Shown piece after piece: positions 3,807 to 19,769 of a DNA stretch of 38,249 nucleotides. The notes beneath the pieces are model-generated. The model saw only the letters and a list, made by a program, of their open reading frames with translations. It did not search any database and had not been told where the DNA came from. Source of the stretch: a virus. How positions within the stretch are numbered: position 1 is the stretch's first letter; each line of letters begins with the position of its first letter. Position numbers and translations under genes: made by a program. The stretch is taken from IMG/VR virus record IMGVR_UViG_3300023178_000117, positions 1 to 38,249 of that record; one strand, written 5' to 3'.

Positions 3807-4751
3807 ATGGCACATGAAGTAGAAACAATGGCATATGCGGGTGAAGTTCCATGGCACGGTCTTGGAGTAAAAGTATCTAATGATCTTACGCCAGAACAAA
3901 TTATGGTAAAGGCTGGTTGTGATTGGGAAGTCACCAAAGAGCCTATTATGACAGAATCTGGTATTGCTATTCCGGGTAAGAATGCATTGGTGCGTTCATC
4001 AGATCAAAAGGTATTTGATATCATCGGAGATGATTGGAAACCTGTTCAGAATCGTGAAGCATTTCAATTCTTCTCAGAGTTTGTATTAGCCGGTGAAATG
4101 GAAATGCATACTGCGGGTTCATTAAAAGGTGGTAAGAATGTTTGGTGTCTTGCTAAGGTTAATGAATCTTTTTCTATCAACGGAGATGATCAGATTGATT
4201 CATATCTATTGTTCTCTAATCCACATGAGTATGGTAAAGCCATTGATGTTCGCTTTACACCTATTCGTGTTGTATGTCAAAATACTCTTACATTCTCTTT
4301 ACAGGCTGCATCTAAGAATTTTGTAAAGCTTAATCACCGTACAGTATTTGATCCTGATATGGTTAAGGAATCTCTAGGTATTGCATCTGAGAAGTTTGCA
4401 AAGTATAAAGAGATGGCTGAGTTCTTGTCTTCTCGTAAGTTCTCTACAGAAGCTCTTATTCAATACTACAATGAGGTGTTTCCCTTTACACATAAAGAGC
4501 AGACACCTGTTGAGGTTGCGGATGATCTTTCCAAGAATGCTAAAGCAGCTATGGAAGTTCTCTATACACAACCTGGTGCTCAGTATGCCGAAGGTAGCTG
4601 GTGGCAGGCTCTTAATTCTGTAACCTATCTTACAGATCATGTTATGGGTCGCCAAGCGGATACTCGTATACAGTCTTCATGGTTTGGTATTAATCAAAAC
4701 CGTAAACTTAAAGCTGTTAACAAGGCAGTAGAGTATGCCCGAGCCGCGTGA
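3807..4751 (+). CDS. DUF932 (phage/plasmid-like TIGR03299 type) protein
   Basis: The protein has 314 residues. The N-terminus MAHEVETMAYAGEVPWHGLG and the later DWKPVQNREAFQFFSEFV are hallmarks of the DUF932 / TIGR03299 phage-plasmid family, full length here. The family is widespread on phages and plasmids but has no proven biochemical role that I know. It has a strong promoter, a GAAGGAGA site and early-type position, suggesting high early expression. It is followed by a SWIM zinc-finger gene. Confidence 0.88.
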   Translation: MAHEVETMAYAGEVPWHGLGVKVSNDLTPEQIMVKAGCDWEVTKEPIMTESGIAIPGKNALVRSSDQKVFDIIGDDWKPVQNREAFQFFSEFVLAGEMEMHTAGSLKGGKNVWCLAKVNESFSINGDDQIDSYLLFSNPHEYGKAIDVRFTPIRVVCQNTLTFSLQAASKNFVKLNHRTVFDPDMVKESLGIASEKFAKYKEMAEFLSSRKFSTEALIQYYNEVFPFTHKEQTPVEVADDLSKNAKAAMEVLYTQPGAQYAEGSWWQALNSVTYLTDHVMGRQADTRIQSSWFGINQNRKLKAVNKAVEYARAA

Positions 4752-4762: not shown

Positions 4763-5008
4763 ATGAGTACATTCTACGGAAAACAAAAGAATGGTCCAAA
4801 AGGGAGAGTGATACCGTCCGAGGTGATTCGGACGGAGAATCACTGGCTTATTGGTACGACATGGACAAAGAATGGATCGACCGGAAATAAATATAGTATT
4901 ACAATGTTCAATAAGGGTTTTGCTTGTAGTTGTCCAGCATGGAAGAAATGCAAGCATATAACTGCTGTCGAAGAACAATTGGCTTATGAAGGAGATTATA
5001 GCACATGA
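4763..5008 (+). CDS. SWIM-type zinc-finger protein, 81 aa
   Basis: I placed the start at ATG 4763 with AGGAAAGG upstream; a GTG at 4748 is less likely. The 81-residue protein has a core FACSCPAWKKCKHI with Cys55, Cys57, Cys63 and His65 in the CxC-x(n)-CxH pattern of SWIM zinc fingers, which bind DNA or protein partners. It follows the DUF932 gene and overlaps the next gene (ATGA). The partner is unknown. Confidence 0.75.
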   Translation: MSTFYGKQKNGPKGRVIPSEVIRTENHWLIGTTWTKNGSTGNKYSITMFNKGFACSCPAWKKCKHITAVEEQLAYEGDYST

Positions 5009-5196
5009 TACCTATTAATTCAAAAAAGGAACCTACTCTATTAGGTAAAATGGAAAACATCGAAGATCTATTTAAGGTTAGTAAAATGGTTGATAATATG
5101 AACCAGGATCTTATTGATTCGGGATTTGATCAATATCAATACATAACGGTCCAACGAGGTAAGAAACTTTACATAGAACGTAAAGAAGGCCCATAG
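5005..5196 (+). CDS. Hypothetical protein, 63 aa
   Basis: It overlaps the upstream stop (ATGA), with a GAAGGAG site inside the preceding gene. The 63 residues include a helical centre (MENIEDLFKVSKMVDNMNQD) and a basic tail. Its stop codon TAG forms part of the loop of an intrinsic terminator, so it is clearly the last gene of this early unit. No family is recognised. Confidence 0.65.
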   Translation: MIPINSKKEPTLLGKMENIEDLFKVSKMVDNMNQDLIDSGFDQYQYITVQRGKKLYIERKEGP

Positions 5197-5210
5197 GGGC
5201 CTTTTTTATT
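5186..5210 (+). terminator. Rho-independent terminator
   Basis: AAGGCCC (5186-5192) pairs with GGGCCTT (5197-5203) around an ATAG loop. Six T residues run from 5202 to 5207. The upstream gene's stop codon sits in the loop. It ends the early operon just before a late promoter. Confidence 0.9.
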
Positions 5211-5212
5211 CA

Positions 5213-5220
5213 TATAAATA
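5213..5220 (+). promoter_or_regulatory. T4-type late promoter TATAAATA
   Basis: There is a perfect match to the T4 late octamer directly after an intrinsic terminator and 28 bases before the ATG at 5248. A gp33-type coactivator is encoded at 36642, so such promoters should be active in this phage. Confidence 0.75.
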
Positions 5221-5247
5221 TAGTAAAAGTTTACAAATGGTGTTTCT

Positions 5248-6201
5248 ATGAAAAGATTTGCATTACATGAAGAATTATTGTCAGAGGCTTCTAATTATGA
5301 ATTAGGCGCAGCATATGAGACTGCTACAGCTTTGCATCTTCATAATAGTACTCATTCTGAAAGAAATACTTCTCCCGAACATTTAGAACGTATTAAAAAG
5401 ATGAAACAGCTTCATGATGAAGCAATGTCTAAATTTTCTCCAGAGAAGCAAAAGGAAATTCTTCAGCGTGGAAAAGATTCTGCTAATGCCTATCTTAAAT
5501 CTTTAAAGACTAATCATGGCATTAATCCCGAAGACGTACATGAAGTTCATCATACATATGCAGGTATTGATTCTCTTGTAGGAAAGAAAGTATCTCAACA
5601 TATGAATCCACATGATGTTGCTATCAAAACAAAGAATGGTAAGCTTCATGGAGCATCTCTAAAATTCTCACCTGGTACTCTTTCTAACAATCCAACAAAA
5701 GCATTTGACAAAATGTCTGGTGAACTTGGTATTAAGACCGACACACATGGTGTTTGGGATCATCACTCCAATAAAGCCGGCCTTAGTGGTATGACTAAGA
5801 AACAAAAGAAAGAAGTAAGAGATAAACCCGAAATAAAAGATGCTAACATGGAAGCAAAGAAGCAATCAGCTTTGCACCATACAGAAGCTTGGAATAATGC
5901 CAAACACGAAGATCATAAAAGATTTTTGCAGCATATTACAAAATCGGATCCGCATATTCCATATGACTACGTTGTAGGTCATAAAGGTGGAACAGCAGAA
6001 CCCATCAAAGATAAACACATTCATAAACTTATTGCCAATGCAAAGTCTCTAAAGGCTACACATAATGGTACTAACTTAGTTCATATTCACGACCATGAAG
6101 GTAATCATGTTATGACATTTGAACATAGACCTACACATGGATCATTTATTTCAACCCAAGTAAATGCAAAGTATGGTTCAGGAAAAGCAAAGGCTAAGTA
6201 A
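5248..6201 (+). CDS. Late-block protein, 317 aa, possible packaged protein
   Basis: It lies behind a TATAAATA promoter and starts MKRFALHEELLSEAS. That N-terminus resembles a T4 capsid-targeting peptide ending in LSE before Ala. The body is unusually rich in His and Lys (HNSTHSER, HEVHHTYAG, HIHDHEGNHVM). A segment near residues 120-150 (HDVAIKTKNGKLHGASLKFSPG) is reminiscent of phage-encoded restriction-like or nuclease-fold proteins, but I cannot confirm catalytic residues. It overlaps the next structural gene by one base (TAATG). The function is unknown. Confidence 0.6.
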   Translation: MKRFALHEELLSEASNYELGAAYETATALHLHNSTHSERNTSPEHLERIKKMKQLHDEAMSKFSPEKQKEILQRGKDSANAYLKSLKTNHGINPEDVHEVHHTYAGIDSLVGKKVSQHMNPHDVAIKTKNGKLHGASLKFSPGTLSNNPTKAFDKMSGELGIKTDTHGVWDHHSNKAGLSGMTKKQKKEVRDKPEIKDANMEAKKQSALHHTEAWNNAKHEDHKRFLQHITKSDPHIPYDYVVGHKGGTAEPIKDKHIHKLIANAKSLKATHNGTNLVHIHDHEGNHVMTFEHRPTHGSFISTQVNAKYGSGKAKAK

Positions 6202-6926
6202 TGGCAACGACAAGATATTTTTCCAATACATTTTATGCTGAGGGGGTAGACATTGCCAAAGGTGTGGTGATGGACGCGTCTCAGCGTAATATATTTGGAA
6301 CGTGTGGTGACACAGCAAACATTGTTACAACTGAATTTAGAACGCCTTGGGAGTTAGCAAGCAACTATATTTTTCCAAGCGCAGCTGCTCAGATGAGTTT
6401 AGTAAGCACCAGTGCTTCAGATACAGCAGTAACTGTTTTAATCTTGGGGTTAGATGCGGATTATAATATTATTCGAGAAACCCAAACTTTAACTGGGACA
6501 ACCCCAATTACAACAGATAATACTTATTTTAGAATTAACGATATTGTTTGTGTAGCAGGAAATGCGGTTGGTGATATAACATTAAGTGTTGGCGCTAATG
6601 TATATGCAAAGATATTGGCTGGAACTGGAAGAGACCAAAAAGCTGTTTATACTGTACCTAAAGGATACTGCTTTTTTCTTCAACGTATTGATGCTTTCTG
6701 TACAGATGCAAATGGTGGTAAAGCAGCAAGATTTAGAAACTTTTTAAGATCACCCAATGGTAGAGAACTCAGAGTAGCCGATACAACATTTTTTGAGAAT
6801 ATGCAAATTCTTAGACAAACACCTTTTAAGTATGATGAAAAGACGGATATTGAAATGCAGCTAAGATCGTTATCCGGTTCAACATTTGGATCTATATTTG
6901 CAGAAGGAATATTAGTAAAACTTTAA
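6201..6926 (+). CDS. Virion structural protein, 241 aa
   Basis: The protein is beta-rich with few charges, opening MATTRYFSNTFYAEG. It contains a LGLDADYNIIRETQTLTGTT segment and a FLQRIDAFCTDANGGKA segment, of a type I recall from structural proteins of marine T4-like phages. It is coupled to the preceding late gene (TAATG). No enzymatic motif is present. It could be a head-decoration or tail-associated protein; the sequence does not say which. Confidence 0.7.
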   Translation: MATTRYFSNTFYAEGVDIAKGVVMDASQRNIFGTCGDTANIVTTEFRTPWELASNYIFPSAAAQMSLVSTSASDTAVTVLILGLDADYNIIRETQTLTGTTPITTDNTYFRINDIVCVAGNAVGDITLSVGANVYAKILAGTGRDQKAVYTVPKGYCFFLQRIDAFCTDANGGKAARFRNFLRSPNGRELRVADTTFFENMQILRQTPFKYDEKTDIEMQLRSLSGSTFGSIFAEGILVKL

Positions 6927-6935
6927 AAAATGTTG

Positions 6936-6964
6936 TTGACAATTGAAATTAAATCAAATATAAT
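6936..6964 (+). promoter_or_regulatory. Perfect-consensus sigma-70 promoter (TTGACA-17-TATAAT)
   Basis: TTGACA 6936-6941, 17-base spacer and TATAAT 6959-6964. Oddly, transcription should start near 6971, at or just after the ATG at 6970. The transcript would then be leaderless or be translated from a later ATG at 7015. Confidence 0.65.
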
Positions 6965-6969
6965 AAGAT

Positions 6970-8199
6970 ATGGAAAATTTTAGAACACATATAACAGAAC
7001 AAAAAAATACTCATATGACTCACATCGAAGATAAGGTTATCTACGGTGGTGTCAAGGGCACACGTCAAGCCATACTCGCTTTGCGAGAGCTTCGTGATAT
7101 GTTAAGAGGAGTACATGATGGTAATGTCTCTGTTAAGTGGGATGGTGCCCCTGCTATTTTTGCTGGCACTGATCCTCGCGATGGTAAATTCTTTGTCGCC
7201 AAAAAAGGAATCTTTAATAAGAATCCTAAAGTCTATAAGTCTAGTGCTGACGTGGACGCTGATACTTCTGGTGATCTGGCTGCTAAGCTTAAACTCGCAC
7301 TAAAGCATTTGCCTGCTTTGGGTATTAAAGGTGTGGTACAAGGTGACTTTTTATTTGGTCCAGGTGATATAAAGACTAAGAAAATAAAGGGATCGTCGTA
7401 TGTTACATTTCATCCTAACACTATCGTCTATGCGTTGCCTAGCGAGTCGGCTGGAGCTAAGGCTGTTAAGTCAGCAAAAATTGGAATCGTCTGGCATACA
7501 ACCTACACTGGTAATTCCTTCGAGTCAATGCGAGCTTCTTACGGAGTTGACGTCTCCAAGTTTAACACAACCAGAGCTGTGTGGTCGCAAGATGCAATGC
7601 TCCGGGATCTAAGCAAAGTTACTATGAGTAAAAAGGACACAGAGTATGTTAATGAACTTCTTTCAGAAGCTGGGTTTCTCTTCAACAAAATCGCTGGATC
7701 GACTCTTAGGCAGCTCGAGAATGAGGAAGAGCTACCGCGCCTCATTGAGCAATTCTATAATAAACATGTCAGAAAAGGAACGCTTATCGGAGATTCAGAA
7801 CGACATGTATCCAAGCTCATTCGTTGGATTAGATTACGTTACGCAAAAGAGATTGCCAAGCGCAAAACAGAAAAAGGAAAATCTGGACAAAGAACTAAAC
7901 TAGATAATATATTATCTTTCTTTTCAGAAGAAAATAAAAAATCTTTGAAATATATGTTTGACCTTCAAAAAACTATTGTGCTTGCAAAACTTAAACTTAT
8001 AAATACACTTAATAAACTAGGTAATGTAGATACATTTGTGAAAACAAGCCGAGGTTACAAAGTAACCGGAGCAGAAGGTTATGTAGCAATTGATAAACTT
8101 GGTGGTGAAGCGGTGAAGATTGTTGATCGTATGGAGTTTTCATACAACAACTTTTCACCAGATATATTAAAAGGATGGGATAAGCCAACGAGGAATTAA
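6970..8199 (+). CDS. DUF6267-type, ligase-like nucleotidyltransferase protein
   Basis: The 409-residue protein contains VKWDGAPAIFAG with Lys56-Trp-Asp-Gly59. This is the KxDG motif of the covalent nucleotidyltransferase superfamily (DNA/RNA ligases, capping enzymes), where the Lys takes the AMP or GMP. A later GVVQGDFLFGPGD (about residues 119-131) and GIVWHTTYTGNSFE could supply further active-site motifs. I assign DUF6267 from memory. The N-terminus MENFRTHITE resembles a capsid-targeting peptide ending in ITE. The start at 6970 has no ribosome-binding site, and Met16 (7015) is an alternative. No ligase activity is shown for the family as far as I know. Confidence 0.7.
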   Translation: MENFRTHITEQKNTHMTHIEDKVIYGGVKGTRQAILALRELRDMLRGVHDGNVSVKWDGAPAIFAGTDPRDGKFFVAKKGIFNKNPKVYKSSADVDADTSGDLAAKLKLALKHLPALGIKGVVQGDFLFGPGDIKTKKIKGSSYVTFHPNTIVYALPSESAGAKAVKSAKIGIVWHTTYTGNSFESMRASYGVDVSKFNTTRAVWSQDAMLRDLSKVTMSKKDTEYVNELLSEAGFLFNKIAGSTLRQLENEEELPRLIEQFYNKHVRKGTLIGDSERHVSKLIRWIRLRYAKEIAKRKTEKGKSGQRTKLDNILSFFSEENKKSLKYMFDLQKTIVLAKLKLINTLNKLGNVDTFVKTSRGYKVTGAEGYVAIDKLGGEAVKIVDRMEFSYNNFSPDILKGWDKPTRN

Positions 8200-8652
8200 A
8201 TGGCCAAAGCAGATTTTAAAACGTTTCTGAACGTAGACTATACACAAACGGGTGATCCACAACTAGCGTATAATGCTAAGAAAAGAAAAATGGACACACC
8301 TACTGGCAATACAGGTGAATCTGTAGAACCTGCAGACGAAGCTCTTTCTATGACTCAACGCAGAGCGCGTTCACGTCAGATGAAAAAGTATCAGGCTCGT
8401 CTAAAGGTTGGTCGTAAAAAAGCCTCTATGAAAGTTGCTGATGCAAAAAGATTAGCCAAGAGAGCACAGCGTACAGCACGTCTTGCATTGGCCAAAAAGA
8501 TTACCAAAGGTATTCCTAAATCTGAACTTACTCCCGCCCGCAAACAAGAGATTGAGAAGAAGCTTGATAAGATGAAGCCTCGTATTAATCGATTGGCCAA
8601 GAAGATGCTACCAAAGATTAGACAAGCAGAATTAGGCAAACGGCGCGGATAA
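8200..8652 (+). CDS. Basic late-block protein, 150 aa
   Basis: The ATG directly follows the upstream TAA. The protein is very rich in Lys and Arg, with long helices (MTQRRARSRQMKKYQARLK, KRLAKRAQRTARLALAKKI, KMKPRINRLAKKMLP). It begins MAKADFKTFLNVDY. The composition suggests nucleic-acid binding or an internal head protein. It sits between two nucleotidyltransferase-like genes. I know similar unnamed proteins from T4-like cyanophages but no function. Confidence 0.6.
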   Translation: MAKADFKTFLNVDYTQTGDPQLAYNAKKRKMDTPTGNTGESVEPADEALSMTQRRARSRQMKKYQARLKVGRKKASMKVADAKRLAKRAQRTARLALAKKITKGIPKSELTPARKQEIEKKLDKMKPRINRLAKKMLPKIRQAELGKRRG

Positions 8653-8655
8653 AAT

Positions 8656-10020
8656 ATGATTAGCAGATTTAGTCAGTTTCTCGTTGAGGAGGAAAAAACC
8701 GTTTTCTTCGGCTTCGGTCGAATGAACCCTCCTACTATTGGTCATGGAAAGTTACTAGACGTATTATCTCAAAAGTCTGGGCGTAATCCATATAGAATGT
8801 TCTTATCACAATCACAAGATAAGAATAAAAACCCTCTTGTATATAAAGAAAAAGTTAAATATGCTAGGAAAATGTTTCCTAAGCATGCTCGTTCTATTAT
8901 GCTTAATAATAAAGTAAGAACTGCTTTAGATGCTTTAGTAATTTTATATAATGAAGGTTTTGTAAACGTTGTGATGGTTGTTGGATCTGATCGTATTAAT
9001 GAGTTTAATGTATTGTTAAACAAATATAACGGCAAAGATTCACGTCATGGTTTTTACAATTTTAAATCAATCAAAATAATTTCTGCTGGTGAAAGAGATC
9101 CCGATTCAGAAGGTGCAGAGGGCGCATCTGCTACTAAACAAAGACAATATGCTAAGGATAATAACTTTACATCCTTTGCACAAGGTCTACCAGCCGCTAT
9201 GACTAATCCTGATGCTAAGAAATTATTTAATGCTGTGCGTAAGGGAATGGGTCTTAAAGAAGCAAAAGAATTTAAAAATCACATTCAACTAGAACCTGTT
9301 TCAGACATCCGTGAATCATATCTTAGAGATAATATCTTTAAGGAAGGTGAACAAGTTGTAATGACTAAACATGGTATTGTTGGTAATATCAAATACCTTG
9401 GCACAAACTATCTAATTGTTGAATCTAAAGGCGAGACATGGAGATGCTGGCTGGATGATGTATCTAAGGTAGATCCTAATGATATTCCTCCAGGACATAT
9501 AGAAGCCGATTATGGTGCTGATCCTGAACAAGGACCATATAGAAATTTATCGGAAGCAAATCAGTCTGTTAAACCTCACCCTGAGGTTGTTAAAGCTTAT
9601 AAAAAGACTTTAGATGCAGAAGATCAAGCTGGCGATTATAACTATAGAAGCAATAAAGCTAGAGTTACTAGAGCAGCAAATCATTTAAGTAAAAAAATTA
9701 AACAGCATCATCCTGATCTTGACATGAAAGATAAGATTGCTCTTCGTACACACCTGCAAAATATGAAGGAAGCAAATCAACCTGAATGGGGCACACCTGA
9801 GTCTACTGCCAAAGCAAAGAAAATTACTCCTGGGGAAGATACTGTTAAAAAATTTAAACAGCATTCAGAAGAAAAAGATACACATGTAACTAAAGACGGC
9901 AAGGTTGCTAAAAAAGGTCTTTGGTATTATATTAATAAAAGAAAGAAAAAAGGTCTACCTGCAAAGAAACCAGGTCAGAGGGGATATCCAAAGACCTTAG
10001 ACATTGAGGGCAAAAAATGA
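8656..10020 (+). CDS. Cytidylyltransferase/NMNAT-like protein with basic C-terminal extension
   Basis: The protein has 454 residues. After MISRFSQFLVEEE (capsid-targeting-like, LVE), VFFGFGRMNPPTIGH carries the TxGH version of the nucleotidylyltransferase HxGH motif (Thr27-His30). VMVVGSDR (about 107-114) and SATKQRQYA (about 159-167, matching the family's ISSTxxR motif) complete a Rossmann-like adenylyl/cytidylyltransferase domain in the first 190 residues. A KOW/SH3-like stretch (GEQVVMTKHGIVGNIKYLG) follows, then Lys-rich repeats to the end. The substrate is unknown. It overlaps the next gene (ATGA). Confidence 0.75.
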   Translation: MISRFSQFLVEEEKTVFFGFGRMNPPTIGHGKLLDVLSQKSGRNPYRMFLSQSQDKNKNPLVYKEKVKYARKMFPKHARSIMLNNKVRTALDALVILYNEGFVNVVMVVGSDRINEFNVLLNKYNGKDSRHGFYNFKSIKIISAGERDPDSEGAEGASATKQRQYAKDNNFTSFAQGLPAAMTNPDAKKLFNAVRKGMGLKEAKEFKNHIQLEPVSDIRESYLRDNIFKEGEQVVMTKHGIVGNIKYLGTNYLIVESKGETWRCWLDDVSKVDPNDIPPGHIEADYGADPEQGPYRNLSEANQSVKPHPEVVKAYKKTLDAEDQAGDYNYRSNKARVTRAANHLSKKIKQHHPDLDMKDKIALRTHLQNMKEANQPEWGTPESTAKAKKITPGEDTVKKFKQHSEEKDTHVTKDGKVAKKGLWYYINKRKKKGLPAKKPGQRGYPKTLDIEGKK

Positions 10021-10853
10021 AACAATTTAAACAACTCTTAGAAGAAGTATCTGACGTTAGATTAAAAACAAATCAAACATTGTCACGGATTGCCAGTTCT
10101 CCCGGGCATCCAATGGCAACCGCTGCTAAGGCTGAATTGGCTAGACGTAAAGAACAACAAGAAGCAAAAGAAGTTGATGAAATAAGCTTGGATGCCCTTA
10201 CCAAGAAAATTTCTAATTCTGGTCTAGACAATATTAAAAAAGCTATGAAGGCCGGCGATATTAAAAAGGATCTTGAAAAGCTAAAGTCTAAAATAGATCC
10301 TACTAAACCCGTTACTAATGAAAAGACTCTTACACCTGCTGAGAAGAAAAAGCGTGAAGAGATTGCTAAGGCTATCGAAAAAGATAATCCTGATATGCCA
10401 ATGGATAAGAAAATGGCAATTGCGACAGCACAAGCTAAGAAGGTGGCTGAAGCTCCCGATGAAGGTGCCATGAAACGTATAGCAACTACGCAATCAAATA
10501 AAGCAGATCGTATGGCGTCTACTGACAAGAAAGGTCTTGAGACATTTAAGAAAAAGGTTGCTGCGACTGAAGATGTAAATGAAATGGGTCCACGACATAC
10601 ATCTTCTCCAATGAAAGACAGATTTGGTGGGGCAGTAGATTCTAAGAAGTTTGGTACATATAAAGCTCATATGAAAAAACATAATTTAGATGAACCAACT
10701 GTACGCATGATTCATAAGAATCCCGATGCCGGGGAATCAAAGCGTATGATGAAAAATCCAAAGTATGCTCAGGCTGTTTCTCTGTATAAAAATGCTCAAA
10801 GAAAAGAATCAACAGACCTTACTAAGATTCGTACTATGTTAGATAAGGAATAG
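10017..10853 (+). CDS. Lysine-rich protein with targeting-like N-terminus and VDEIS motif
   Basis: The protein has 278 residues, starting MKQFKQLLEEVSD, another short amphipathic capsid-targeting-like peptide. Near residue 53 is EVDEISLDALTKKI, a VDEIS-xx-L motif also found in the gene at 12001. The rest is Lys/Ala/Glu-rich helix with two short domains (GAMKRIATTQSNKADRM and NLDEPTVRMIHKNPDAGE). It may be an internal head or core protein; I see no enzyme motif. Confidence 0.6.
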   Translation: MKQFKQLLEEVSDVRLKTNQTLSRIASSPGHPMATAAKAELARRKEQQEAKEVDEISLDALTKKISNSGLDNIKKAMKAGDIKKDLEKLKSKIDPTKPVTNEKTLTPAEKKKREEIAKAIEKDNPDMPMDKKMAIATAQAKKVAEAPDEGAMKRIATTQSNKADRMASTDKKGLETFKKKVAATEDVNEMGPRHTSSPMKDRFGGAVDSKKFGTYKAHMKKHNLDEPTVRMIHKNPDAGESKRMMKNPKYAQAVSLYKNAQRKESTDLTKIRTMLDKE

Positions 10854-10858
10854 AAGAT

Positions 10859-11449
10859 ATGAAAAGTTTAGTTACCTATTCAGTTGAAATGGATGAACAA
10901 GAGGTCAAAGAAGCCGTAGACTTTATGGCCGAAAAAGATATTGTGTTTACAGAGAATGTTTTTAGACCTGGTTCAGAAAAGTATTTTCTTTTCTTTAATG
11001 AAGCAAGGCGCCTAATGGATATGGATATGCTTCAGGTAGAAGGTGTTAATAAAGAGATTCTGGAAACAGACATTGGTAAATTTGATATGTATGAAAATGT
11101 GAGAGTGCCACTTGATTGTCCAATGCCCTATCTAGGTGAAGAGAATCTTGGTGAAGAAGAGAAAAAAGAAATTGGGAAACCTAAAAGAGGTGGTTCCAAA
11201 AAGTTTTATGTTTATGTTAAAAAAGGAGATTCTGTGAAGAAGATTTCCTTTGGTGATAAAGGTGGAGCGTCAGACGGCTCTACTCTTAAAACAAAAATTA
11301 ATGATCCAGAAGCTCGTAAATCATTTGCTGCCAGACATCAATGTTCAACACAAACGGATAGAACATCTGCTGCCTACTGGTCTTGCAGACTGCCAAGATA
11401 TGCTAAGTCTTTGGGCATGCAGGTCAACAATCCAGGAGCGTTCTGGTGA
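10859..11449 (+). CDS. DUF5872-type protein, 196 aa
   Basis: There are two parts. The N-terminal half, about 100 residues, is alpha/beta of unknown type. The C-terminal half, from KKFYVYVKKGDSVKKISFGD through ARKSFAARHQCSTQTDRT to AAYWSCRLPRYAKSLGM, matches the DUF5872 signature in phage proteins, with Cys and Arg positions that could bind metal or nucleic acid. It ends by overlapping the next start (GTGA). The family is common in phage structural blocks, but no activity is known to me. Confidence 0.72.
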   Translation: MKSLVTYSVEMDEQEVKEAVDFMAEKDIVFTENVFRPGSEKYFLFFNEARRLMDMDMLQVEGVNKEILETDIGKFDMYENVRVPLDCPMPYLGEENLGEEEKKEIGKPKRGGSKKFYVYVKKGDSVKKISFGDKGGASDGSTLKTKINDPEARKSFAARHQCSTQTDRTSAAYWSCRLPRYAKSLGMQVNNPGAFW

Positions 11450-11715
11450 CAATTGGTAAACCATATGTTGATATGGTATTAGGAAATAAAAAGATAAGAA
11501 CCTTTGATATGAATGCCGATCAAGATGAATATGAATGGCACCGCGATAAAATAGATAGGAATATTAAAGTATTAGAGGGTGACAATTGGCTACTACAGTT
11601 TGATAATAAAATGCCAATGCCTCTAAAGGTTGATGATGAAGTGTTTATACCTCATGGAGTATTTCATAGAGTATATAAAGGCACCACACCCTTAAAAATA
11701 GAGATAAGAGAATAA
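11446..11715 (+). CDS. Small cupin-like protein (GTG start)
   Basis: The start is GTG at 11446, overlapping the upstream TGA. The 89-residue protein shows a beta-rich pattern: DEYEWHRDKIDRNIKVLEGDNWLLQFD, then LKVDDEVFIPHGVFHRVYKGTTPLKIEI. The IPHGVFHRV turn resembles the second cupin motif. This suggests a single-domain cupin fold; a complete metal site is not obvious. It lies in the late block next to DUF5872. Confidence 0.65.
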   Translation: MTIGKPYVDMVLGNKKIRTFDMNADQDEYEWHRDKIDRNIKVLEGDNWLLQFDNKMPMPLKVDDEVFIPHGVFHRVYKGTTPLKIEIRE

Positions 11716-11716
11716 A

Positions 11717-11989
11717 ATGGATACTGATACACGTTTAGATAGAATAGAAGAAAAGCTGGATAAGCTTAGTGATGTAATAGTATCTATTGCTCGCTTTGAA
11801 GAGAAGATGGATGCTTATAATGAGTATCGTGAAAGATCATGGGATCGTATGAACAAGTTTTCTGAAAAACTTGATGATATTGAACATAAGGTAGATGATA
11901 ATTGCCGAACAGTTCATACCATAAATAAATTATTCTGGATAGCTTTAGTTGCTATAGCAGGATCAATCGCAGCTCAACTTTGGATGTAA
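11717..11989 (+). CDS. Coiled-coil protein with C-terminal transmembrane anchor, 90 aa
   Basis: MDTDTRLDRIEEKLDKLSD opens a heptad-patterned helix that runs to about residue 68. A hydrophobic segment IALVAIAGSIAAQL (about 73-88) is then followed directly by the stop. This layout (N-out coiled coil, C-tail anchor) recurs in T4-like phages as an unnamed membrane protein. A role near the envelope is inferred only. Confidence 0.65.
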   Translation: MDTDTRLDRIEEKLDKLSDVIVSIARFEEKMDAYNEYRERSWDRMNKFSEKLDDIEHKVDDNCRTVHTINKLFWIALVAIAGSIAAQLWM

Positions 11990-12000
11990 GGAGAACAATC

Positions 12001-13110
12001 ATGAGCGAATGGATCAAAAGGTTGGCTGAGAGATTTGCTGAAGTCAACGAATCAAAATTTTTAATTCCGGAAGAAATTCCAACACAAGAACGTACTGCGT
12101 TTATGGGAGCAGCAGCTGCCGCTCATAAAGCAGGTAAGACATCTTTTGAGTTTGGTGGTAAGACTCATAAGGTTACAATGAAAAAAGATACAGCCAATGC
12201 AATTGCTGATGAAAAAGAACCTACTAAAGAAGCAGTAGACCTTGATAAGGATAATGCTGATAAGGCCATTCGTCACGATTGTGCTACACATGTTAAAAGT
12301 GAATCATGGGGCTATGGTGAATGCATTAGTGGTCAACACACTATTGTAGAAACTACTGAAGGTGAAGGTTATGTTACACATTATGACGTAATGTTTGAAC
12401 ATGGCATCGAACGTAATGTACCAGTAGAAGATTTAGAAATTCTACAAGAGATGTCACATTCACATTCTAAAAAGAAAAAAGAGAACGTAGAAGTTGAAAT
12501 GAATCCTAAAAAAGAAAAGAAAAAGGATGATAAAGCATCTACTGAAACCGATATGGCAGCCGAAGCAAAGGTTGATGAAATCTCGGTAGGTAGGCTGCAG
12601 AGATGGGCTAAAGATGCTAAAAAAGACATCGAACAAAAACGTAACAAAGTAAAAGCGGCTTTAGATCAACCAGCAAGTGTAAAGCACGCAAAAGCAGGTC
12701 TTGATGCAATGAAAGGTTTGGCCAAGAGATCTAGAGGATCAGACATGTACGTTGATAAGATGACAGGTCGTTCTAAGGTAAAGCCAACTGCAGAAGAAGC
12801 TGAGGTATGGCCAATCTACAAACGTATCCAGGAAAAGGCAGATGCTGATCGTGCAAAGCATTATAAAGGTGCTGCTAAGCCCGAGGATTGGGATGAAAAG
12901 GAAAAGAATAATAAGGGCGCCATGGATATGAGAAAAGACATGAAAGCCGATGCTCCTGATGAATCCCCATACAAAGAAAAAGATGGTCATGATGATGCGT
13001 CTAAAGCAGGCCGTGTAGGACCTAATGCAAAGACAAGATCAGGTGATAATAAACAAGGTGACAAAAAAGTTATTAATCCTGTAGCAGGTGTCGTAACCAA
13101 AGAAAAATAG
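12001..13110 (+). CDS. Lysine-rich late-block protein with VDEIS motif, 369 aa
   Basis: The ATG at 12001 has TAAGGAG seven bases upstream; an upstream TTG is less likely. The N-terminus MSEWIKRLAERFAEVNE is amphipathic and has LAE and FAE, again like a capsid-targeting peptide. Residues about 90-150 form a compact domain ending YDVMFEHGIERNVPVEDLEIL. A highly charged Lys/Glu linker follows, then KVDEISVGRLQRWAKDAKKD, the motif shared with the gene at 10017. The C-terminus is low-complexity. A packaged or core protein is possible. Confidence 0.6.
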   Translation: MSEWIKRLAERFAEVNESKFLIPEEIPTQERTAFMGAAAAAHKAGKTSFEFGGKTHKVTMKKDTANAIADEKEPTKEAVDLDKDNADKAIRHDCATHVKSESWGYGECISGQHTIVETTEGEGYVTHYDVMFEHGIERNVPVEDLEILQEMSHSHSKKKKENVEVEMNPKKEKKKDDKASTETDMAAEAKVDEISVGRLQRWAKDAKKDIEQKRNKVKAALDQPASVKHAKAGLDAMKGLAKRSRGSDMYVDKMTGRSKVKPTAEEAEVWPIYKRIQEKADADRAKHYKGAAKPEDWDEKEKNNKGAMDMRKDMKADAPDESPYKEKDGHDDASKAGRVGPNAKTRSGDNKQGDKKVINPVAGVVTKEK

Positions 13111-13119
13111 GAGAAGATT

Positions 13120-13512
13120 ATGGCTATAAAACCACCCGGATGGTGTACAAACGCAGTACCAGGTAAAAATGGATGGACTGATCCAGTATCAGGTGAAGTG
13201 TATGTATCTGCAAGATTTACACAGGCAGAAATTGATGAGTATAATGGTGTTCAGATTGATCAAGCTATTCATGATGATATTCAGAATGGAAAGATTGAAG
13301 CTGCCATGGCAAATTCTGATTATGCCGAACCCATTTTTGTAGACGAAGATGATGTAATTCAAGATCTTAACGAAGATGGTGTTATTGATGATTTAGAATC
13401 AATGACCAAAAAAGAACTAGAAGATCTTGGTAGAGAGCATGGTGTTGAACTTGATCGTCGTAAGAACAAAAAGAGTTTAATTTCTACTATGAGAAATCTT
13501 TTGTCTAAATAA
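13120..13512 (+). CDS. Late-block protein with SAP-like C-terminal helix pair, 130 aa
   Basis: It starts with MAIKPPGWCTNAVPGKNGWTDPVSGE, a compact aromatic N-terminal segment. The centre is acidic. The last 40 residues (MTKKELEDLGREHGVELDRRKNKKSLISTMRNLL) have the helix-turn-helix spacing of SAP or Rho-N-like domains, which are usually nucleic-acid or protein binding. A GGAGAA site is upstream. The stop codon lies in a perfect hairpin. Confidence 0.6.
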   Translation: MAIKPPGWCTNAVPGKNGWTDPVSGEVYVSARFTQAEIDEYNGVQIDQAIHDDIQNGKIEAAMANSDYAEPIFVDEDDVIQDLNEDGVIDDLESMTKKELEDLGREHGVELDRRKNKKSLISTMRNLLSK

Positions 13513-13528
13513 AGTAAACACTTTATTT
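13507..13528 (+). other. Perfect 9-bp hairpin containing a stop codon
   Basis: AAATAAAGT (13507-13515) pairs with ACTTTATTT (13520-13528) around an AAAC tetraloop. The TAA stop of the 130-aa gene is in the left arm and the next ATG is ten bases beyond. There is no T-tract, so it is more likely an mRNA-processing or stability hairpin than a terminator. Confidence 0.5.
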
Positions 13529-13537
13529 GGATGTGAC

Positions 13538-13906
13538 ATGAAACTCTTTGAAACTTTAGACGATAAAAATATTTTGATCTTCGCTGCTAAGCATTATTAC
13601 AAACCAAATGTAATTGATGCAGAAGAATTTTATGATGACCTTAAACGGTTTATGTATATTAAAAGATTATTTAATAGGTATTCTAAATCGGGAGAGATAT
13701 CCGAAAGACTTATTTTAAATCATCTTATTGTGATATTTAATGTATTTGGTATTCAACCTAGCCTACAAATGTTGGAGTACCACATTGAACAAAAATATTG
13801 GACATCACTTAAACCGTTTTTGGTCTTTTTAAAATATATTAAAAATGATGAGTATACAAACATACCATTGGATCAACACGTGGTAGATAGATTAAGGAAA
13901 ATCTAA
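13538..13906 (+). CDS. DUF7207-type phage protein, 122 aa
   Basis: It starts MKLFETLDDKNILIFAAKHYYKP and continues with EEFYDDLKRFMYIKRLFNRY, a pattern I associate with the DUF7207 family of T4-like phages. It is helical with no catalytic motif. No good ribosome-binding site is visible (GGATGTGAC only). It is followed four bases later by another conserved late gene. The function is unknown. Confidence 0.68.
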   Translation: MKLFETLDDKNILIFAAKHYYKPNVIDAEEFYDDLKRFMYIKRLFNRYSKSGEISERLILNHLIVIFNVFGIQPSLQMLEYHIEQKYWTSLKPFLVFLKYIKNDEYTNIPLDQHVVDRLRKI

Positions 13907-13909
13907 ACT

Positions 13910-14509
13910 ATGGGCATTATTAAAAGAGCCGGTGATTTAGTATATACATTTAGATTTTTGCGTCTTCTTACTACTAGGTTTGAAGATACCAAAGCTTATG
14001 AATTGGGTATTATTGATGCTGATGGAAAAAGACTAAAGTCATATAATATGGATAGTATGCAATCTCGTGATGATTATAAAAACTACTATACACCTTTTCA
14101 TAGACTTGTTTTCAATATTAAAAAGATTATGGCAAAGGCACCTGGTGGTGGAAGTAGAATTGCAAGTTATGCTGCAGCTCTATATCTACTTAAAGAAAAG
14201 TTTTCTATTTCGGATAAAGCAATTAAAGATGCGTTACAAGAACACGATATTGATCCATTAGACTTTATGGCTGAATCAACACAATGGTTTGTATTAGAAG
14301 ATAAAAGATTATCACCAGGTGTTTATAAAATTGGATCTGATAAACTTATTAATAATACACTTGAGGAAATGGCTCACCAAAAAGATAATATAAGAGTTAA
14401 TGATAACTGTTATCCTGTAGGTGAAATATTTGGTTTAGATATTTACGAGGTGACACATATCAAAACAAAGCAACCTGTATACGTTACAGTGGGAGAACTA
14501 GCAAGATGA
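13910..14509 (+). CDS. Conserved T4-like late-block protein, 199 aa
   Basis: The protein opens MGIIKRAGDLVYTFRFLRLLTTRFEDTKAYELGIIDADGKRLK and continues with TPFHRLVFNIKKIMAKAPGGGSRIASYAAALYLLKE. I recall this type from many T4-like marine phages in the same neighbourhood. The C-terminal third (YPVGEIFGLDIYEVTHIKTKQPVYVTVGEL) is beta-rich. It ends ATGA into a small gene. No function is assigned. Confidence 0.68.
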   Translation: MGIIKRAGDLVYTFRFLRLLTTRFEDTKAYELGIIDADGKRLKSYNMDSMQSRDDYKNYYTPFHRLVFNIKKIMAKAPGGGSRIASYAAALYLLKEKFSISDKAIKDALQEHDIDPLDFMAESTQWFVLEDKRLSPGVYKIGSDKLINNTLEEMAHQKDNIRVNDNCYPVGEIFGLDIYEVTHIKTKQPVYVTVGELAR

Positions 14510-14682
14510 AAAAAGAAACAAAAGAAGATGCTATGACAACCGCAGATGCAGGTATTCCTGCTGATACTAAAGATATGGGTCCTAGATTAAAAATGGTGAA
14601 TATGACTGACCGCAGACGAAGAAAGGATAAACTTCCTGTTCTGTTAAAACGGTTCCGGAAGTATATAGAAGATAATGGCTAA
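14506..14682 (+). CDS. Small basic protein, 58 aa
   Basis: It starts in the ATGA overlap with the upstream gene. It encodes 58 residues: a polar N-terminus with a TTADAGIP motif, then a basic DRRRRKDKLPVLLKRFRKYIED tail. Its end overlaps the i-spanin start by eight bases. The organisation suggests a real coupled gene. The function is unknown. Confidence 0.6.
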   Translation: MKKETKEDAMTTADAGIPADTKDMGPRLKMVNMTDRRRRKDKLPVLLKRFRKYIEDNG

Positions 14683-15124
14683 AATATATTTATTTTTTAT
14701 CATTGTTTCTTTATTGGGTGGCGTAGGATATGGTGGCTATAGTTACTATCTTTGGTCACAAGAAACTATTGGCACTCTTAGAGAAAATAATGTAAAATTA
14801 AAAACAGCGGCTGAGACTCTACAAAACACTGTTGAGAAGATGGCAGCAGATGCAAAGAAAAACGAACAACTAAATAAAGATTTAACAAAGAGACTACAAC
14901 AGTCCCAAGAGCACCTTGATAAACTTAGAGGTGTGTTCGCTAAAATTGATTTGACTATGGAGGCATTAACAAATGCACAAGGACTTGAAGACCGAGTTAA
15001 CAATGCCGTTAACAAACTCATTGGACGTATCAAAGATGAAACTACCCCTCCTTCTGACCGGCCTGCTGATACTGACAGCGTGCGGGGCGAGACTACCGGA
15101 GAAGGAAGTAGTAGTAACAACTGA
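14675..15124 (+). CDS. i-spanin (Rz-like), inner-membrane spanin subunit
   Basis: The 149-residue protein has an N-terminal membrane segment (about residues 4-26, FFIIVSLLGGVGYGGYSYYL), then a periplasmic coiled coil (about 33-90) and a polar tail. This is the layout of Rz-type spanins, which join an outer-membrane partner to fuse the two membranes at lysis. A lipoprotein gene starts inside it in another frame, as in the classic Rz/Rz1 pair. No endolysin or holin is seen next to it. Confidence 0.82.
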   Translation: MAKIYLFFIIVSLLGGVGYGGYSYYLWSQETIGTLRENNVKLKTAAETLQNTVEKMAADAKKNEQLNKDLTKRLQQSQEHLDKLRGVFAKIDLTMEALTNAQGLEDRVNNAVNKLIGRIKDETTPPSDRPADTDSVRGETTGEGSSSNN

Positions 15125-15419
15125 ATACCAAGAACAAAATATTCCAATTCAAGAAAGACCTAAGGCTGTAGATTTTCCTCCGGTTGATTGGTTTGTTATT
15201 ACAGAACAGAATATGGAAGAAAAGATTGCCGAGATTAATTCTAAGACCGGCAATGTTGTTTTGTTTACTATTACGCCAAAAGGTTATGAGAACTTAGCTA
15301 TTGGGATCGCAGATCTTAGAAGGTATGTTAAGGATCAACAGGCGATTATTGCTTACTATGAAGAGGCATTAACACCAGATAAACCTAAGGAAGAAGTGAC
15401 CTCTACCGAAGAAAAATAA
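15036..15419 (+). CDS. o-spanin lipoprotein (Rz1-like) with extra C-terminal domain
   Basis: The start at ATG 15036 lies inside the i-spanin gene in another frame. MKLPLLLTGLLILTAC is a lipoprotein signal with lipobox LTAC and Cys16. The mature protein is long, about 111 residues against roughly 40 for lambda Rz1. After a Pro/Glu-rich linker (PIQERPKAVDFPPVDWFV) it has a folded part with FTITPKGYENLAIGIADLRRYVKDQQAIIAYYEE. It is overlapping at the start but runs 295 bases past the i-spanin stop. Confidence 0.82.
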   Translation: MKLPLLLTGLLILTACGARLPEKEVVVTTEYQEQNIPIQERPKAVDFPPVDWFVITEQNMEEKIAEINSKTGNVVLFTITPKGYENLAIGIADLRRYVKDQQAIIAYYEEALTPDKPKEEVTSTEEK

Positions 15420-15559
15420 AAAAAATATTTTTATTTAAATCGCATATATGGCCCGTTCCGAGGTCATAGAAATAATATATACTACTATCAATTCAATAAT
15501 CAACTATTAACGTCTATTGTACGGATAGGCGCTGTCATTTTTTGTCCAAGAGGTATAAT
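15420..15559. other. 140-base gap before nrdJ with no recognised element
   Basis: This AT-rich gap contains an A/T run just after the spanin stop and a TATAAT at 15554-15559 that touches the nrdJ start codon. A CTGTCA sits 16 bases before it, but that would give transcription inside the gene. I looked for a cobalamin-riboswitch-like segment and did not see one. There is no ORF. Confidence 0.4.
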
Positions 15560-17788
15560 ATGCTTAAAGCAGTTCCAAACTATAAAGATACCGACCTAAG
15601 AGGTCTAATGTCACAAACAAAATTTTATGAGGGGTATAGTAGATGGGACGAAGACAACGAGCGATATGAATCTTGGGAAGAATCTGTATCACGTGTAATG
15701 GATATGCATCGTGATTATTATAAAGATAAAATGACACCCGAACTAAGCCTTCTTATTGATGAAGCAGAAGCATCCTATAAATTAAAATATGCTTTGGGTG
15801 CACAACGCGCATTGCAATTTGGTGGCGATCAGTTAATGAAACATCAAATGAGAATGTATAATTGTACTTCTACATATGCCGATCGCCCACGCTTCTTCTC
15901 AGAACTATTTTATGTTCTACTATGTGGCGCTGGTGCTGGATTCTCAGTACAATATCATCATGTTGATAAACTACCAGATATTCAAGAACGTAAGAAGCAG
16001 GCTAAAGGATGGGTCGTTGAAGACTCAGTAGAGGGATGGGCCGATGCTCTTGGAGCTCTATTGTCATCTTACTTTGTGGGCGGTGGTCAGTTCCCAGAAA
16101 TGGAAGGTCGTAAAGTCTACTTCGACCTAAATAATGTACGTCCCAAAGGTGCTATGATTAGTGGTGGATTCAAAGCACCTGGACCAGAACCACTACGGAA
16201 AGCGTTAGATAAAATTGAACATCTCATTCAGTCTCGAGTCCTTAGTGGGCACAATCGTCTTCGACCTATTGATGTATATGATATTGCCATGCATGCTGCT
16301 GATGCTGTGCTTGCTGGTGGTGTTCGTCGTTCTGCAACTATCTGTCTCTTCAGTGCTGAAGATGAAGAAATGGTCTCAGCCAAAACAGGAAATTGGTTCA
16401 TTGATAATCCTCAGCGCGGCCGTAGCAATAACTCTGCTGTCATTGTTCGTTCCGAGATTACTAGAGAGCAATTCAAGTCAATTATGGGGTCCATCAAAGA
16501 GTTCGGTGAGCCCGGATTTTACTTCGTCGAAGATAGAGATTTCACCACTAACCCCTGTGTCGAAATAGGAATGTACCCACAGATTGATGGTAAGTCTGGG
16601 TGGCAGGGATGTAACCTAACAGAAATTAATGGAGGTAAATGTACATCATCAGCCGAATTCTATAAAGCATGTAGAGCAGCTGCTATTCTTGGAACATTAC
16701 AAGCAGGTTATACAAGCTTTAAGTATTTGGATAAAACAACCAAAGATATCTTCGAAAGAGAAGCATTGTTGGGTGTATCTATCACGGGATGGATGAATAA
16801 CCCGAGTATTCTTTTCGATGAAGAGTTTCAAACAAAAGGAGCTGAAATTGTTAAACAAGTTAATAAAACCGTTGCAGAGCTTATCGGAATTAATGCGGCA
16901 GCAAGAACAACGTGTGTTAAGCCTAGTGGAAACGCTTCCGTTCTACTCCAAACGGCGAGCGGTATACATGCTGAGCATTCTCCTCGTTATATCCGTCATA
17001 TACAACTAAACAAGGATACAGAGGTAGCTCAACTACTTGCTGAATCAAATCCATATATGGTTGAAGAGTCTGTGTGGTCATCTAACAATACAGACTACTG
17101 TGTCGGCTTTCCTATTATCTCACCAGAAGGTTCTCTATTCCGTGAAGAACTATATGGCACAGCACTATTGGAGAAAGTAAGACTAGTACAACAGAATTGG
17201 GTTGAGGCAGGTACAAACAAAGAATTATGTGCGGATTCTAGGGTCCGCCATAATGTATCCAATACTGTAACTGTAATGCCACACATGTGGTCTCAAGTGG
17301 AGGATTATGTATATGACAATCGCGATTCTTTTGCAGGTATATCGTTCTTGGCGGGCTCGGGTGACAAAGACTTTGCACAAGCGCCAATGACCGAAGTATT
17401 AACAGAAGACCAAATAGTTGAAAAATATGGTAAGGCGGCATTGTTTGCTTCTGGCCTTATTGTAGACACCCGCAAACAAGGATTTAGAGATCTATGGGAC
17501 GCAACCATGCAAGCTCAAATGCCAGAGGAATATCGTGGCGAGATCTCAGATCTAAACAAAGAATGGATTCGTAGATTCAAAAAATTTGCCGATAACTACT
17601 TTGAAGGTGATCTTAAAGAAACAGAGTATTGCCTTAAAGATGTATTCCTATTACATAAGTGGACTAAGATTCAACAAAACATTAGTCCTGTAGATTTTAA
17701 GACACAGCTTTCACAAAAGCGATTTACCGATATAGATACTATGGGTGCGATCGCATGTCAGGGCGGTGCATGCGAAATCACATTCTAG
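15560..17788 (+). CDS. nrdJ: Class II (adenosylcobalamin-dependent) ribonucleotide reductase
   Basis: The 742-residue protein reduces ribonucleotides to deoxyribonucleotides using coenzyme B12. Key residues are Cys102 (MYNCTST), Cys333 and Glu335 in NPCVE (thiyl-radical Cys and proton acceptor), Cys351 (GWQGCNL, likely redox partner of Cys102) and the C-terminal pair Cys733/Cys738 in CQGGAC. That pair is spaced as in the Lactobacillus monomeric enzyme. The start at ATG 15560 with AAGAGG upstream is preferred to a TTG 18 bases earlier. It needs host cobalamin. T4 itself uses class I NrdAB. No radical subunit gene is nearby or required. Confidence 0.93.
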   Translation: MLKAVPNYKDTDLRGLMSQTKFYEGYSRWDEDNERYESWEESVSRVMDMHRDYYKDKMTPELSLLIDEAEASYKLKYALGAQRALQFGGDQLMKHQMRMYNCTSTYADRPRFFSELFYVLLCGAGAGFSVQYHHVDKLPDIQERKKQAKGWVVEDSVEGWADALGALLSSYFVGGGQFPEMEGRKVYFDLNNVRPKGAMISGGFKAPGPEPLRKALDKIEHLIQSRVLSGHNRLRPIDVYDIAMHAADAVLAGGVRRSATICLFSAEDEEMVSAKTGNWFIDNPQRGRSNNSAVIVRSEITREQFKSIMGSIKEFGEPGFYFVEDRDFTTNPCVEIGMYPQIDGKSGWQGCNLTEINGGKCTSSAEFYKACRAAAILGTLQAGYTSFKYLDKTTKDIFEREALLGVSITGWMNNPSILFDEEFQTKGAEIVKQVNKTVAELIGINAAARTTCVKPSGNASVLLQTASGIHAEHSPRYIRHIQLNKDTEVAQLLAESNPYMVEESVWSSNNTDYCVGFPIISPEGSLFREELYGTALLEKVRLVQQNWVEAGTNKELCADSRVRHNVSNTVTVMPHMWSQVEDYVYDNRDSFAGISFLAGSGDKDFAQAPMTEVLTEDQIVEKYGKAALFASGLIVDTRKQGFRDLWDATMQAQMPEEYRGEISDLNKEWIRRFKKFADNYFEGDLKETEYCLKDVFLLHKWTKIQQNISPVDFKTQLSQKRFTDIDTMGAIACQGGACEITF

Positions 17789-17796
17789 GAGAGCAG

Positions 17797-19768: not shown

Positions 19769-19769
19769 G

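Follow-up and report, generated by a model that had tools for sequence, protein, structure and literature searches.

In bacteriophage T4, the proteins IPI and Alt are carried in the phage head; IPI acts against a restriction enzyme of the host, and the host RNA polymerase is modified by Alt (PMC9026906, a review of Black's work; statements taken from this review and from the mass spectrometry papers cited below refer to selected sections of these sources). Within the capsid-targeting sequence (CTS) of T4 IPIII, residues 4 and 7 mainly serve targeting and residues 8 and 10 processing, and IPIII with Asp at position 10 is targeted without being cut. The same review describes the ejection proteins of the giant phages phiKZ and SPN3US as internal proteins that a gp21-like protease cuts after Glu. 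Here, we report on five genes, beginning at positions 5248, 6970, 8656, 10017 and 12001, of the virus record IMGVR_UViG_3300023178_000117, which was analyzed over its entire length of 38,249 bp (hereafter the window; GC content 37%). It represents part of the genome of a T4-like marine phage and encodes T4-like replication proteins, including gp32 (PF08804, 3.5e-43) and T4 RNase H. With a probability of about 0.8, we conclude that the proteins of genes 6970, 8656 and 10017 bear T4-type capsid-targeting tags at their N-termini that load them into the head for injection into the host; gene 5248 probably encodes a longer form of such a tag, and its presence on 12001 is uncertain.

The window tags resemble the start of T4 IPII and IPIII (MKTYQEFIAE-A), a ten-residue N-terminal peptide with aromatic residues at positions 4 and 7, Ile or Leu at 8 and Glu at 10, placed ahead of unrelated protein bodies. 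At 100 and 193 amino acids, IPII and IPIII are small proteins, whereas the candidate cargo of the window includes proteins of 278–454 amino acids, and targeting, established by experiment in T4 (PMC9026906), is deduced from sequence in the window phage. T4 IPI has a longer start of 19 residues (MKTFKEFTSTTTPVSTITE) that is comparable to that of gene 5248. The first-pass annotation of the window had credited T4 Alt with MKTYQEFIAE; this was mistaken, as Alt begins with MELITELFDE, and the former peptide is confined to IPII and IPIII among those T4 proteins that were read. A Pfam match to an ADP-ribosyltransferase, the activity of Alt, is found in none of the five window proteins. The proposed window system is like that of phiKZ and SPN3US in that internal proteins would be cut after Glu by a gp21-like protease; the propeptides of these two phages are longer, and their motifs are other than the T4-type tag. 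Finally, the cyanophages S-CREM2, S-SZBM1, S-SCSM1 and S-SM1 possess a virion-reported adenylyltransferase-like enzyme that is orthologous to the product of gene 8656 and has an N-terminal tag as in the window; the reports on cyanophage virions, which also list a SAM (S-adenosylmethionine) lyase and a kinase-like protein, record presence only and, in the sections consulted, name no targeting sequence.

Definition and Distribution of the N-Terminal Tag

The five open reading frames (ORFs) have the coordinates and N-termini that the first-pass annotation had given them, and all lie on the plus strand. Their features are as follows ("strict pattern" is defined below).

5248–5286, plus strand: possible longer tag MKRFALHEELLSE, site after E13; does not match the strict pattern
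5248–6201, plus strand: candidate cargo of 317 amino acids, rare (10 loci in viral contigs)
6970–6999, plus strand: tag MENFRTHITE (F4, H7, I8, E10); matches the strict pattern
6970–8199, plus strand: DUF6267 protein of 409 amino acids, probable ligase-fold covalent nucleotidyltransferase, cargo 1 (Pfam PF19782, 8.2e-103)
7135–7146, plus strand: KWDG (K56–G59), likely nucleotidyl-lysine motif I, invariant in alignment A1
8656–8688, plus strand: tag MISRFSQFLVE; matches the strict pattern
8656–10020, plus strand: HxGH-type nucleotidyltransferase ("cytidyltransferase", PPAT/NadD/NMNAT fold) of 454 amino acids, cargo 2 (phrog_395, 4.3e-63)
8716–8745, plus strand: active-site motif GRMNPPTIGH, read directly
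10017–10046, plus strand: tag MKQFKQLLEE; matches the strict pattern
10017–10853, plus strand: candidate cargo of 278 amino acids, of unknown function, no Pfam or PHROG match
12001–12030, plus strand: doubtful tag MSEWIKRLAE; does not match the strict pattern

The strict pattern, M-x(0-5)-[FYW]-x2-[FYWHLMI]-[ILVMF]-x-E, was derived from the N-termini of homologues in 80 viral contigs and was never altered afterwards. Because it was written after viewing these homologues, its application to the window and to the 6970 and 8656 families is post hoc; its application to T4 and to the cyanophage virion lists is not. Among the 70 window genes (genes and starts from our own list), four match, namely 6970, 8656, 10017 and 28386, against a mean of 0.27 in 5000 shuffles of the N-termini; 14 of these shuffles reach three matches and none reaches four. 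The match of 28386, a 54-amino-acid ORF outside the block, is probably due to chance. A bare (I/L)xE near residues 10–13, on which the first-pass annotation had built its claim of a five-protein pattern that is hard to explain otherwise, occurs in nine of the 70 genes, while the shuffles have a mean of 5.1 and equal or exceed this count in 301 of 5000 cases. Being near chance, it says little alone, and it was rejected as a signal (p = 0.17 for its association with virion presence in S-CREM2). The idea of a shared capsid-targeting-like start survives for 6970, 8656 and 10017, while 5248 carries a variant at best and 12001 is doubtful. The same division is seen with the residues that characterize a CTS (hydrophobic residues at 4 and 7, Ile or Leu at P3, Glu at P1), which are present in 6970, 8656 (shifted by one) and 10017 and incomplete in 5248 and 12001. 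In T4, the strict pattern finds IPII and IPIII and one of 63 other listed coding sequences (CDS; taken from fetched stretches of the T4 genome), and it misses IPI and Alt.

Conservation of the tag is best documented for the two enzyme families. DUF6267 proteins begin with M-x-x-F-x-x-[FYH]-[IL]-[TS]-E ahead of the enzyme, and 95 of 96 close relatives, selected via the NTHMTH motif without regard to the tag, retain the Glu preceding the domain start NTHMTH(I/V)ED; a set of 85 tagged members of the family, chosen for matching the pattern, has Phe at P7 in 84 and Ile at P3 in 81. The 8656 family starts with M-I-x-x-F-x-x-[FY]-L-V-E. Of 99 members picked by GRxNPPTxGH within their first 70 amino acids, and not by the tag, 87 carry it, and 11 of the 12 untagged proteins start within a few residues of the domain. 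The positions conserved in these tags are those that serve targeting and processing in T4 IPIII (PMC9026906). Conservation of (I/L)xE in homologues, the check proposed with the original prediction, is thus seen for 6970 and 8656; the result is ambiguous for 12001, and 10017 has few informative homologues.

The breadth of the tag was assessed in 246 loci fetched by homology, a procedure that enriches the two main families. The strict tag is present in 293 of 2395 distinct ORFs (50 shuffles: mean 8.9, maximum 15), while only 19 of 11,804 internal Met positions in the same loci match the pattern. Outside the two main clusters fall 121 of the 293 tagged ORFs. The bodies of the tagged proteins form 45 clusters, which we estimate to represent about 30 families because several of them clearly belong together; the tag behaves as a module, in that unrelated proteins carry it and some orthologues do not. 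By protein comparison, the best-ranked named relative of the window is phage C48C1 (Kyanoviridae), with identities of 65% for the 6970 protein and 57% for that of 8656; no near DNA match to positions 5000–25000 was found in the phage collection. In C48C1, six of 199 CDS are tagged (1000 shuffles: mean 0.73, maximum 5), and four of the six lie in the homologous block.

Tagged Homologues in Cyanophage Virions

All virion evidence stems from published mass spectrometry of other phages, and five cyanophages with a tagged 8656 homologue are covered. In four of them this homologue was reported: in CsCl-purified virions of S-CREM2 (start MKNFSSFLTE-A; PMC10665884, Table 3), S-SZBM1 (MRFRQFIIE-A; PMC9146016, Table 1) and S-SCSM1 (MKSFLQFLKE-A; PMC9602691), and, as T4-GC190, in the purified virion of S-SM1 (MKKFSAFLNE-A; PMC3037559). 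Because a T4-like head-loading start coincides with virion-reported relatives of one of the tagged proteins, it is probable that the head carries these proteins and that they are injected with the DNA. The earlier proposal of T4-type, gp21-cut tags on head-carried proteins is well supported for 6970, 8656 and 10017, the virion-reported homologues of 8656 in four cyanophages all being tagged; it does not extend with the same strength to 12001, which is doubtful, or to 5248, a variant at best. The direct evidence consists of the peptides and how well they are conserved, of orthologues with and without them, and of the protease gene of the relatives, together with the detection by others of tagged homologues in virions.

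The S-CREM2 data permit a statistical comparison (219 CDS with annotated starts, 52 virion proteins; one-sided p values). Four of six tagged CDS are virion proteins versus 48 of 213 untagged ones (p = 0.029); among non-structural proteins, four of 28 found in the virion are tagged versus two of 167 undetected ones (p = 0.0043). With two less strict tag patterns, the p values were 0.02 and 0.038. The four tagged virion proteins are ORF136, ORF154 (homologous to 8656), a kinase-like protein whose match to Pfam Pkinase (1.1e-5) falls short of the family cut-off, and ORF6, which matches a SAM lyase family (PF23780, 2.3e-19). ORF12 and ORF13 are likewise in the virion and have near-miss tags. The annotation of ORF12 (L302:7704-10313) as Cas9 was dropped, because it is supported by neither a Pfam family nor a PDB sequence match.

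Untagged proteins provide a partial counterpart. The untagged DUF6267 proteins of S-CREM2, S-SZBM1 and S-SCSM1 are not among the reported virion proteins of these phages, as far as the consulted sections list them. S-PM2 encodes an HxGH enzyme behind the C-terminal part of DUF6267 in a single untagged ORF (S-PM2p142, L358:3133-4305), and this protein was undetected in the virion according to PMC3037559; the contrast is weak because seven genuine structural proteins likewise went undetected in those data. In S-CRM01, the strict pattern finds g127 (homologous to 8656) and the kinase g130, and looser matches are g126, g128 and g129; PMC10665884 cites virion kinases for this phage, and S-CBWM1 is cited as a further phage with an NMNAT-like virion protein. 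A small module resembling G-H/Y-G-x-Y/W-x-D/N.. was seen soon after the tag in several virion-linked enzymes (S-SCSM1 ORF91, S-CREM2 ORF12 and ORF14, S-SM1 ORF190, S-CREM1 ORF218, syn9 gp184).

A T4-type prohead protease (Peptidase_S77, PF03420) and gp23 (PF07068) were found in all ten relatives' records that were searched. Of six gp23 sequences, four contain FLTE or FLAE in the N-terminal part and the other two, judged by eye, FLGE and QLNE; T4 gp23 has FLTE at the corresponding place and S-CREM2 gp23 LLTE. One gp23 gene (G001:C1:110962-112079) is split into pieces with in-frame stops, which may reflect an insertion, an intron or an assembly error.

The Probable Enzymes Encoded by Genes 6970 and 8656

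Two of the five proteins had been suggested to be nucleotidyltransferase-like enzymes. In the 6970 protein, KWDG, QGDFLF and EGYVAI..VKIV plausibly correspond to motif I (KxDG) and motifs III, IV and V of the covalent nucleotidyltransferases and ligases, an assignment that we made by eye. KWDG is found in 37 of 37 sequences of alignment A1; KxDG and EG[YF]V..KLV are present in six named phages, five of which also have a QGD-type motif III. The structural model (predicted local distance difference test, pLDDT, 71.6) gave weak similarities in VIA-align, to T4 RNA ligase 2 (Z 6.3 over 90 residues) and the tRNA ligase Trl1 (Z 6.0), in a list where unrelated rows at equal Z are mixed with ligase rows; BAR-domain and receptor rows were set aside and ascribed to the helical C-terminal part. 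Foldseek returned nothing at E<=0.001. From motifs and model, the 6970 protein is a probable ligase-fold nucleotidyltransferase. No paper on DUF6267 was found in a literature search that left most subscription journals outside its scope. The family is tagged in C48C1, Stenotrophomonas phage DLP6 and the methylotroph phage Melnitz-2, and has a shortened tag in HTVC008M.

The 8656 protein has the (H/T)xGH motif and the Rossmann-like fold of the HxGH superfamily. Eight of the ten motif residues (G21, R22, M23, N24, P25, P26, G29, H30) are invariant in the 31 sequences of alignment A2. An AlphaFold2 model of residues 1-299 (pLDDT 77) aligned in VIA-align with phosphopantetheine adenylyltransferase (PPAT; Z 13.9, 2.8 A, 152 residues) and nicotinamide mononucleotide (NMN) adenylyltransferase (Z 13.0); chains of PPAT, NadD and NMNAT all score Z 12-14, so that the model does not single out one substrate. 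A PDB sequence-profile search with the 6970 and 8656 proteins gave no usable match. Tags occur on the 8656-family proteins of S-SM1, S-CREM2, S-SZBM1, S-SCSM1, S-CRM01, S-CREM1 and syn9; that of Melnitz-2 comes close to having one, and those of P-HM2, HTVC008M and S-PM2 lack it. In C48C1 (L083:13448, OQ984149) the homologue is annotated from MNPPTIGH; this start looks too late, because the open frame extends upstream through a tag, VIKNFSQYLLE. A single profile, PHROG 455, matches both the 6970 and the 8656 proteins, and since S-PM2 in addition partly fuses the two, they may work together.

Genes 10017, 5248 and 12001

The 10017 protein contains an LTPAEKKK module that is common to differently built proteins with tags of the same design (L044, L245). 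Its residues ~100-146, LTPAEKKKREEIAKAIEKDNPDMPMDKKMAIATAQAKKVAE, are found again, at identities reaching 93%, in many phage proteins whose similarity to 10017 is limited to this stretch. Neither 10017 nor 12001 showed a significant sequence link to the neighbourhood proteins of S-SZBM1, S-CREM2, S-SCSM1 and HTVC008M.

Gene 5248 encodes F4 and an LLSE that ends at residue 13, a spacing unlike the core pattern. Its N-terminal variants MKRFALHEELLSE, MKSFKFTESLLTE and MKSFRFTENILTE (four distinct relatives) all have F4 and [IL]L[ST]E13, and judging from these peptides a longer form of the tag is plausible. No match was found in 50,697 phage records, and searches of Pfam, PHROGs, NCBIfam and PDB sequences yielded nothing convincing as to its identity; a PD-(D/E)xK nuclease was suspected by eye, and support for it was not found. 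In the 12001 peptide, W4 and LAE10 are present, but residue 7 is Arg. The longest version of this frame begins with a TTG at 11980, and the ATG at 12001 is preceded by an AAGGAG site. In seven relatives, picked by pattern, conservation continues beyond the Glu (LAEAYxxVNE-like), and one has Asp at this position; a tag on 12001 is therefore doubtful.

Weighing the Explanations

Several observations weigh against the conclusion that these tags load proteins into the head for injection. Virion presence in the window phage and cleavage of the tags on any of these proteins are presumed; the window is a fragment among whose proteins no head genes were recognized, and its own prohead protease was not seen in the 38 kb. 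In four near-complete relatives, the numbers of tagged ORFs (4, 4, 2 and 1) stay within the range of 500 shuffles. DUF6267 is untagged in S-CRM01, S-SZBM1, P-HM2, S-PM2, S-CREM2, S-SCSM1, S-SM1 and syn9, and head loading is therefore not general for the family. Four patterns were tried in the S-CREM2 test, and with our own ORF caller the comparison becomes 3/4 versus 49/199 (p = 0.053). Tagged ORFs were reported in the virion in just one of three cases in S-SZBM1 and one of four in S-SCSM1, virions also hold many untagged proteins, and the tagged 8656 homologue of S-CREM1 (MKRYTNFLSE-A) is absent from the 14 virion proteins described in the consulted part of PMC9964418, a shallow set of which four are structural. 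Furthermore, the authors of two of the mass spectrometry studies caution that such enzymes may be CsCl carry-over. This caution and the tagged proteins that go unreported in the virions of S-SZBM1, S-SCSM1 and S-CREM1 favor the view that the virion enzymes are contaminants and the N-terminal helix is the enzymes' own binding or membrane element, unrelated to packaging; amphipathic helices have many uses. We consider this quite unlikely, because identical spacing recurs on many unrelated proteins, T4 IPII and IPIII among them, untagged orthologues exist (11 of which start at the domain), the Glu is kept in DUF6267 relatives almost without exception, and the tag is associated with virion presence in S-CREM2.

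A resemblance created by coding bias at AT-rich gene starts that are rich in Lys, Phe and Glu would suit the low GC content of the window, but it is most improbable given that composition-preserving shuffles fall so far short of the counts in the loci and in the window, and that conservation of the Glu is evident in the protein sequences. The peptides might also recruit proteins for assembly of the prohead core, with the proteins then remaining in the prohead or leaving it instead of being injected. T4 core proteins are likewise cut by gp21 (PMC9026906), and ORF136 of S-CREM2, which codes for a tagged virion protein, has terminase genes on either side; we nevertheless hold this to be rather unlikely, as several tagged proteins are enzymes by homology and the SAM lyase-family protein ORF6 would serve only in the host. 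We incline slightly towards the possibility that the tags are genuine and used by some of the five proteins only, 12001 and perhaps 5248 being chance look-alikes. Both lie outside the strict pattern, bare (I/L)xE is near chance, and the conservation past the Glu and the Asp in 12001 relatives point the same way; with regard to 5248, the retention of F4 and [IL]L[ST]E by each of the three variants of an otherwise diverging tag, and the longer start of T4 IPI, speak for a true variant.

Proposed Route and Implications

If the tags act as capsid-targeting sequences, the short amphipathic peptide would bind the scaffold core of the growing prohead, so that the protein becomes enclosed; a gp21-type prohead protease would cut after the Glu of I/L-x-E and free the cargo inside the head, from which it would be ejected along with the DNA. 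The injected enzymes would then precede phage transcription, as T4 IPI and Alt do, and those of 8656 and 6970 might act on nucleotides or nucleic acids of the host or phage before phage genes are expressed. Supply of nicotinamide adenine dinucleotide (NAD) or other cofactors and RNA repair are possible roles of this pair.

A broader proposal, to which we give even odds as a whole, is that T4-like Kyanoviridae and related phages share a single exchangeable N-terminal tag for head loading, and that this tag serves as a general means of delivering a clade-variable arsenal of injected proteins, the set of which could be read from sequence. It would comprise the adenylyltransferase-like enzyme, the ligase-fold nucleotidyltransferase beside or fused to it, a SAM lyase, kinase-like and P-loop proteins and perhaps a metallopeptidase-like protein, and during the first minute of infection the pair of DUF6267 and HxGH enzymes would serve counter-defence by acting on broken RNA, NAD or other nucleotide cofactors. 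The capsid-targeting mechanism is known from T4, and the range of its cargo in these phages appears to have gone unrecognized; in the literature searched, which left out most subscription journals, the sections consulted contain no description of cyanophage tags of this kind. The ocean harbors T4-like phages in great abundance, and the majority of genes in these phages lack an assigned function. If the proposal is true, a readable tag would single out which of these proteins are injected before phage gene expression, show where anti-restriction and other counter-defence enzymes may lie, and explain cyanophage virion enzymes that their discoverers could not distinguish from contamination.

Further candidates were noted at other loci. 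A P-loop/zeta-toxin-like protein (L345:19003-19668; AAA_33, 1.1e-11) has a full tag, and another (L085:16563-17225, HTVC008M; Zeta_toxin, 3.1e-13), encoded between DUF6267 and the HxGH enzyme, a reduced one. A tagged small protein (L150:4428-5063, L152:4668-5084) has very weak metallopeptidase-like matches.

Neighbouring Genes and Other Features of the Window

Three further features lie next to the five genes.

5213–5220, plus strand: octamer TATAAATA, presumed T4-type late promoter; one of four exact matches in the window, all on the plus strand
8200–8235, plus strand: tag-like MAKADFKTFLNV without Glu; both Phe positions kept, Val in place of Glu
8200–8652, plus strand: protein of 150 amino acids with this Glu-less, tag-like start

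Among 66 distinct homologues of the 8200 protein, 35 have Val at the Glu position behind F-x-x-[FYML], three have Glu and 17 lack such a stretch; from its sequence, the protein is possibly a natural variant that is targeted yet uncut. The description of the region as a late block was checked by motif only. The octamer, of the T4 late-promoter type, sits in the 51-bp gap directly upstream of 5248, a suggestive position; its core ATAAATA, found nine times in the window versus 22 expected by chance, is under-represented rather than enriched.

Elsewhere in the window, a gene run at 21725-28329 includes glycosyltransferase- and methyltransferase-like members (GT25, Methyltransf_24), and its first two genes share the start MKTLIYQVYVGKRS and have no Pfam family. 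A protein of the phage/plasmid-like family TIGR03299 (2.6e-67) is encoded at 3807-4751, and a tryptophan halogenase family protein (PF04820, 2.6e-29) at 34961-36127.

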